Source of the DNA: Aquaspirillum serpens DSM 68
GTDB lineage: Bacteria; Pseudomonadota; Gammaproteobacteria; Burkholderiales; Aquaspirillaceae
Direction: 5' to 3'
Assembly: GCF_000420525.1 (NCBI RefSeq)
Contig: NZ_ATVC01000027.1
Span: forward strand, 1-33,524
Length of the DNA: 33,524 nt
Positions 1 to 33,524 of the stretch are shown here, piece by piece. Position 1 is the stretch's first letter, and each line of letters begins with the position of its first letter. A model generated the notes under the pieces. It saw only the letters and a program-made list of their open reading frames with translations. It was not told the DNA's origin and did not search any database. A program made the translations under genes and the position numbers.

Positions 1-383
<383 letters not shown>

Positions 384-31804: not shown

Positions 31805-33214
<1,410 letters not shown>

Positions 33215-33234
33215 TTTGCTTTTTGTTTCAAAGT

Positions 33235-33263
33235 AAAAAAACCGCCGTCAAAGGCGGTTTTTT
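33235..33263 (+). terminator. Terminator after purB
   Basis: CCGCC (33242-33246) and GGCGG (33253-33257) are extended by A and T runs on both sides (seven A, six T). A textbook intrinsic terminator 20 nt after the purB stop. Confidence 0.93.
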
Positions 33264-33322
33264 CATTGTCTTGCAATGCACAATACCGCTAATCTCTCCC
33301 CTTATTTTAGAGGCTTGTACGC

Positions 33323-33524
33323 TGTAAACAACCCGCGACTGAAGTCGCAGGCTTTATCGTAGGACGAGACAATGTCTATCCCCGACATTAGGCCGGTTTA
33401 CAACAGCCCTTGGCGAGACGGCCGTCTCGCCAATCCACCGATATTAGCGCCTCGGTGGAGAACGGCTACAGATCCTGTGCTCCCACCGCTTTGCGGTAAC
33501 CTGGGATGCCGGCCACCGAAAACT
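33323..33524 (+). ncRNA. Putative HEARO / IscB omega-RNA, truncated by the window end
   Basis: About 200 nt of non-coding, very structured sequence. TGTAAAC (33323-33329) pairs with GTTTACA (33396-33402), enclosing hairpins at 33332-33351 (GCGACT/AGTCGC) and AATGTC/GACATT (33371-33388). Then come a perfect 24-nt palindrome (33410-33433), a CCACCG/CGGTGG hairpin, an ACCGC/GCGGT hairpin and the motif GGGATGCC. The order and pieces such as GACATTAGGCCGG and GGATGCC recall HEARO RNAs lying upstream of iscB. The guide would be roughly the 16 nt before 33323. Alternative: the right end of a minus-strand tnpB element, since the first hairpin read in reverse has a CTTCAG loop like the left element. 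Confidence 0.5.
33323..33524. mobile_element. Probable end of a second IS200/IS605-type (OMEGA) element
   Basis: The sequence changes character about 60 nt after the purB terminator, from plain intergenic DNA to dense inverted repeats. The boundary is placed near TGTAAAC at 33323. No complete ORF is visible in the remaining 200 bp; the protein gene (iscB on plus, or tnpB on minus) would lie outside the window. Confidence 0.5.

Follow-up and report, generated by a model that had tools for sequence, protein, structure and literature searches.

The right end of the window (the whole stretch of Aquaspirillum serpens DNA analysed, 33,524 nucleotides, contig C27 of a 119-contig genome) stops within a repeat behind purB, and the features at this edge are as follows.

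31841-33214, plus strand: purB, the upstream host gene (PF00206 and PF08328)
33236-33263, plus strand: terminator-like hairpin behind purB and upstream of the insertion (sequence scan)
33304-33323, minus strand: predicted guide segment, formed by the host DNA that adjoins the right end and placed by the boundary common to 20 distinct copies and by the guide position of the ISDra2 reRNA
33324-33524, minus strand: the 201 bp in the window of a non-autonomous element of 335 bp (IS200/IS605-type, PATE-like), with the remainder at C39 102-235
33324-33443, minus strand: right end with omega (re)RNA scaffold and, within it, the final codons of the lost tnpB (covariance model, covariation and the tnpB tail frame IGETAVSPRAVVNRPNVGDRHCLVLR with its stop)
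33324-33329, minus strand: right-end tip GTTTAC, 3' side of the pseudoknot (helix 3)
33332-33351, minus strand: subterminal right-end hairpin (helix 4)
33396-33401, minus strand: loop GTAAAC, 5' side of the pseudoknot (helix 3)
33410-33433, minus strand: perfect 24-nt palindrome, the first scaffold stem (helix 1)
33444-33524, no strand: inner filler, which continues in C39 and contains GGGATGCC (sequence comparison)

Two other contigs overlap this edge exactly. Bases 1-101 of C39 are identical to the final 101 bases of the window, and the end of C100 is identical to the final 95, with the two continuations diverging at the very next base after the overlap. On C39, the repeat stops at base 235, right before the ATG of a 546-aa MCP/HAMP/PilZ (chemotaxis-receptor) protein, and on C100 the same short form of the element stops right before exbD, which is directly continued by LpxK, Trm112, CTP_transf_3 (kdsB-like) and adenylate kinase (ADK) genes. 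Neither continuation has a nuclease gene directly next. In each of the three relatives that have a close exbD (G005, G003 and G002), an exbB-like frame lies right before that gene, and of four ExbB-family genes in the own genome none lies at a contig end. This favours C39 over C100, and we infer that the window copy joins C39. The gene after purB is, by reading of the translations, neither an MCP gene nor exbD in five family relatives (comEA-like in G001, G002 and G004, other genes in G003 and G005), so that this gene order does not settle the choice.

The chain of hairpins that an earlier note had described behind purB is real, as none of 200 dinucleotide shuffles folded as well, with a z of −3.5 for the region on the plus strand and of −5.2 for 33324-33443 on the minus strand. 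TGTAAAC (33323-33329), GTTTACA (33396-33402), the perfect 24-nt palindrome (33410-33433) and GGGATGCC (33503-33510) are all present. The structured feature, which had been given as 33305-33524, is nevertheless bounded differently, in that 33305-33323 is host flank, the element starts at 33324 and it continues past 33524 into C39. HEARO, the omega-RNA of IscB, is a structured RNA with a flank-derived guide, and in these respects the element resembles it. The proposal that the edge is such a RNA, with an iscB gene on the plus strand just outside the window, fits a structured repeat with a chain of hairpins at a contig edge. However, no HEARO match was detected at E ≤ 10 in 33200-33524 or in C39 1-260, the strand is the opposite one, C39 and C100 lead to the MCP gene or exbD instead of iscB, and homologous right ends are joined to tnpB, all of which makes HEARO identity extremely improbable. 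At the gathering score, no Rfam family matched in the window or in loci L069, L070, L162 and L091; weak matches at E ≤ 10, all below the curated scores, numbered 27 in 33200-33524, where the best one falls at the purB terminator, and 3 in C39 1-260. The RRXRR profile (PF14239) had 0 matches in the own genome, but the control of this search matched in no genome and the result is not decisive.

The relationship of the repeat to TnpB elements is apparent from its copies. Positions 33324-33434 are 75-79% identical to the ends of tnpB elements on contigs C75, C93 and C2, where the minus strand runs on into a TnpB C-terminal domain (PF07282; NF040570). Relatives with an intact or decayed tnpB occur in Herbaspirillum sp., a Methylococcaceae bacterium, Nitrospirae J017, Methylohalobius, a Gammaproteobacterium and Parasutterella, and they have in common the right end and its boundary GTTRTTTAC, with unrelated DNA beyond; the boundary reads the same in Herbaspirillum, with a weaker hairpin. 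Across 20 distinct copies, the right-end boundary is common and the DNA after it is different each time. TnpB was assigned by NF040570 and PF07282, and TnpA by PF01797; two J017 copies have a 137-aa TnpA ahead of tnpB, of which the one scanned was a PF01797 protein. The phage collection held one distant TnpB, and the plasmids held one close TnpB record and 17 distant ones; no relative was found in the viral contigs. In the own genome (G000, 2.6 Mb), PF07282 had 34 matches above the cut-off among the 37 listed, and these domains apparently represent several subfamilies, with many at contig ends. An explanation by a riboswitch-like leader RNA of the MCP gene would suit the position within a 5' leader, but related ends precede unrelated genes, one of them sits inside a gene, the ends match a transposon, and the window and the four loci named above gave no Rfam match at the gathering score; a host regulatory leader thus has hardly any likelihood.

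At the left contig edge, window 1-250 was observed to hold a C-terminal remnant and a right-end-like hairpin of another TnpB subfamily, with a weak C-terminal TnpB match on the plus strand of window 30-98 (PF07282, E 1.4e-4, below the cut-off). Both edges therefore look like TnpB-type remnants, and the idea that the 33 kb is bracketed by two kinds of nuclease element falls away.

To evaluate the right-end structure, 28 pairs were named, consisting of the palindromic stem, the loop hairpin with the pseudoknot and the subterminal hairpin. From the 20 distinct right ends known, 17 were aligned, with L005, L104 and L106 omitted as near-duplicates, and 97.3% of the cells were paired, with two-sided changes in 16 pairs; none of 500 shuffles equalled it in even one of five measures, and the pairing was lost when the partners were slid. 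In this alignment, helix 1 (10 pairs) had two-sided changes in 8 and 97.1% of its cells paired, although its overlap with tnpB codons means that part of its conservation may be coding, and helix 4 (8 pairs) had two-sided changes in 4 and 98.5% paired. Helix 3, the pseudoknot in which the hairpin loop GTAAAY pairs with the terminal RTTTAC, had 97.1% paired in the 17-sequence alignment, where the C45 and C12 copies are off by one base at the tip and lose pseudoknot pairs, and 98.7% in the set of 13 described below; since only one of its six pairs changes on both sides (UA/CG), its support is mainly constancy. In a set of 13 right ends that excluded the window, C2, C45 and C12 and retained C75 of the own genome, 97.2% of cells were paired, two-sided changes occurred in 15 pairs, and 0 of 500 shuffles were as good. 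Furthermore, a covariance model built from these 13 matched the minus strand of 33324-33443 over its entire length (1-122 of 122) with 111.4 bits and an E-value of 6.9e-27. This right-end scaffold, which overlaps the 3' end of tnpB, is of the TnpB omega/reRNA kind. The model match and the covariation bear out the claim that an OMEGA-type structured RNA marks the end of a mobile element here; the long-range pair and the palindrome are true parts of it, but of a TnpB right-end RNA on the minus strand, while GGGATGCC lies within the inner filler, outside the scaffold. What had appeared to be an IscB locus is hereby corrected to a TnpB-derived one.

Read through C39, the element runs for a total of 335 bp from the right end, through an inner filler that is shared between the two contigs, to a left end, and reading of its six-frame translation gave no tnpA or tnpB frame except the tnpB tail in the scaffold. 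No promoter was found in scans of the element. Among the compared loci, the filler matched the tnpB zinc-finger region over 22 bp in inverted orientation and G064 over 24 bp; as the latter match lies within what reads as an aldo/keto-reductase-like frame, it was taken as chance. The left end on C39 matches those on C18, C59 and C4, and left ends of the family are found on C39, C100, C18, C59, C4, C45 and C12. The C18, C59 and C4 ends (L066-L068) belong to own-genome copies with tnpB, in which the first 18-23 tnpA codons remain, and the C59 left end runs into a TnpB N-terminus that shares 71% identity with the L091 N-terminus over 136 aa. Because other copies in this genome have tnpB beyond a similar right end, it could be supposed that the window carries the edge of an intact minus-strand TnpB element with its gene in an unassembled gap. 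However, the exact 101-base overlap leads into C39, and after 134 more bases the element is closed there by a left end; C100 has the same short form, and the sequence past the palindrome is not tnpB. A gap containing tnpB is accordingly very unlikely. The fallback that the earlier note had offered, TnpB on the minus strand, named the right family, but the window copy lacks tnpB.

Gene-less copies of this family also occur elsewhere. Two complete 212-bp copies are present in the same genome on C45 and C12, matched by the 13-sequence scaffold model at E-values of 2.6e-15 and 5.8e-16, and a shorter one is present in genome G331 (E 0.005). Subterminal hairpins occur at both ends of the element, the left-end one being at C39 199-216, and the hairpin on C100 differs in sequence but pairs. 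Hairpins at both ends, a fixed short target and no target duplication are characteristic of IS200/IS605-type ends. The left-end hairpin was seen in two sequence versions, GCGATTGAAATCGC on C39 and C18 and CTGACTCAAGTCAG on C100, C59 and C4, both occurring on gene-less and tnpB-bearing copies as if swapped between them.

The window element, which is TnpB-type, has no genes and keeps a conserved guide scaffold, is of an already known kind. The main texts on palindrome-associated transposable elements (PATEs) of Haloquadratum and Halanaerobium describe gene-less elements with near-terminal palindromes related to IS605-type ends, as in the window element, without target duplication in Haloquadratum and with 28 nt of the left end, the final 58 nt of tnpB and the complete right end retained in Halanaerobium (PMC3119063, PMC7290912). 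The 335-bp, C45, C12 and G331 elements fit the PATEs, as both ends are kept and tnpA and tnpB are absent. The PATE papers (2011 and 2020) are earlier than the 2021 report of the TnpB guide RNA, whereas the scaffold of the window element is demonstrated by covariation; and the term "start codon" is absent from both PATE main texts (PMC3119063, PMC7290912), whereas the left end of the window element abuts ATGAA. In ISDra2, the reRNA comes from the right end and overlaps the 3' end of tnpB, the guide is taken from the flanking DNA, and insertion occurs 3' of a pentanucleotide (PMC8612924). The window family shares this layout, with TTCAT as the target instead of the TTGAT of ISDra2 (PMC8612924), and the window copy, unlike the ISDra2 TnpB/reRNA system, has neither tnpA nor tnpB.

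The parent elements, which carry subterminal hairpins and encode tnpA and tnpB or tnpB alone, insert 3' of TTCAT; their guide scaffold is formed by the tnpB 3' end with the right end, and the host DNA beyond it is the guide. The window copy retained both ends and the whole scaffold but lost the genes, so that both its movement and any guiding of TnpB would depend on proteins provided in trans. The genome has several copies of the element alongside nine PF01797 loci, none of which was an intact tnpA of the family (best 28-44% identity where matching), and the window copy may consequently be immobile. From its position, the guide is predicted to be the reverse complement of 33304-33323. A guide had been placed at about 33306-33322 before, which is the right place but on the wrong strand and for the wrong family. 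The plus strand of this segment contains AGAGG. Prior to the insertion it would have formed the leader of the following gene, which would make the guide antisense to the leader of a native translation start.

To characterize the other end, we examined 18 left ends: seven from the own genome (found by similarity to C39 and again by pattern), three from G214 and G331 (by a pattern with GCGGAG and ATGA, ≤3 mismatches), seven from the 15 closest TnpB loci (four by fuzzy pattern, three by eye) and one from a plasmid. In the other eight of these 15 loci, several of them cut by contig ends, the left end was not found. A pattern match in G189 was dropped before this count, as it reads as a sigma-54-regulator-like frame without a hairpin. 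TTCAT precedes 16 of the 18 ends, GTCAT one and CTCAT one, some having been found with queries that included ATGA. GGAG or GAGG lies 4-6 nt ahead of ATG in 17 of 18, a count to be read with the fact that the finding methods favour ends with GGAG and ATGA; the exception is Parasutterella, which keeps the hairpin and AAGGAAAC without GGAG. The predicted pairing of the left-end tips with the anti-Shine-Dalgarno end was −5.9 to −10.2 kcal/mol, compared with −1.5 kcal/mol in Parasutterella and −5.8 kcal/mol for the native leader left of the window element.

TTCAT is ATGAA on the opposite strand, and for this reason the left end often stands right before a start codon. A recognisable gene start is adjoined by nine of the 18 left ends, namely those of MCP, exbD, purN, mrpD, resB, nrfD-like, a CheW-like frame (below the Pfam cut-off), iscX and MS channel genes. 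The family profile starts at position 1 for PurN and IscX, and begins 21-85 residues in for MCP, ResB and NrfD, whose exact starts rest on the ORF. Two further ends adjoin only ORFs of 123 and 109 aa with no family, six are not at gene starts (C4, C12, L088, L089, L094 and the Methylomarinovum plasmid copy), and the G331 end was assigned to neither group. By our own gene calls, the 261 ATGA sites of the window comprise 15 at gene starts (counted generously), 217 inside genes and 29 intergenic. In the own genome, 5 of 7 ends are at starts, compared with 6 of 95 ATGAA sites (P 2e-5). If disruptive insertions are simply purged, this excess is not significant, as shown by the comparison with non-disruptive sites only (5/6, P 0.056; 5/7, P 0.13). 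For all copies, the figure was 11 of 13 (P 0.0003), which takes the baseline of this window for other genomes, includes the two ORFs with no family and omits G331 and four ends read as inside genes.

Taken together, the ends, boundaries, covarying scaffold, lack of genes and start-codon positions are evident from sequence, and it is highly probable that the repeat at this edge belongs to a short IS200/IS605 TnpB derivative without genes, whose right end faces purB and whose left end adjoins the next start codon, that of the MCP gene if the window joins C39. The left end may also supply a ribosome site to the gene behind it, for which exbD is the best case. In G005 and G003, an exbB-like frame ends, AAGGAG is next, and ATGAAC starts exbD 6-7 nt later, so that the native Shine-Dalgarno sequence lies just upstream of the point where the element stands in the own genome; in G002, exbD starts with ATGGAC, not ATGAA, right behind exbB. 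On C100, the left end GCGGAGATTCT is directly ahead of ATGAAT. If the ancestor resembled G005 and G003, the insertion split exbD from its own Shine-Dalgarno sequence and put that of the element there instead. The GGAG/GAGG of the element would thereby replace the displaced site, and such insertions would be tolerable.

It may also be that GGAG serves only for recognition by the transposase, and that the start-codon positions reflect the TTCAT target and the loss of harmful insertions, with the host genes translated poorly or from elsewhere. A transposase must recognise the terminal region, which includes the tip; 6 of 18 left ends are off gene starts, and the own genome has no significant excess over non-disruptive sites. 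On the other hand, Parasutterella keeps the hairpin and AAGGAAAC without GGAG, the GGAG/GAGG core is constant while its flanks vary, and the gene run from exbD to ADK continues directly behind the C100 copy. We consider recognition alone to be possible, though short of an even chance. We hold as a tentative proposal, which we would not yet call probable, that in this TnpB family the target is an antisense start codon and the left end a ribosome-binding site, so that the element settles between a gene and its Shine-Dalgarno sequence, even before essential operons, without silencing them; in the gene-less copies, nothing but the ends, the ribosome site and the guide RNA would remain, TnpB in trans would hold them in place, and their guides would be antisense to the leaders of native translation starts. 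No report of TnpB-element left ends as ribosome sites was found in the literature searched, which most subscription papers lie outside, and the ribosome-site-like left end with start-codon positions is a testable variant for which that literature gave no earlier description. If the left end supplies translation, it would be a simple way for a selfish element to make a start-codon insertion harmless and would link the target choice of TnpB to gene expression. Gene-less copies with a guide scaffold would also allow asking whether TnpB protects non-autonomous copies in trans.

The C12 copy (L070 1770-1981, 212 bp) splits a gene for a delta-class carbonic anhydrase between CAG and ATGAAC. There is no target duplication, and the alignment with homologs runs unbroken over the join. 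By reading, the upstream carbonic anhydrase frame continues through the element and stops at a TGA that overlaps the new ATG. Unbroken homologs of this carbonic anhydrase are found on Shewanella and Pseudoalteromonas plasmids.
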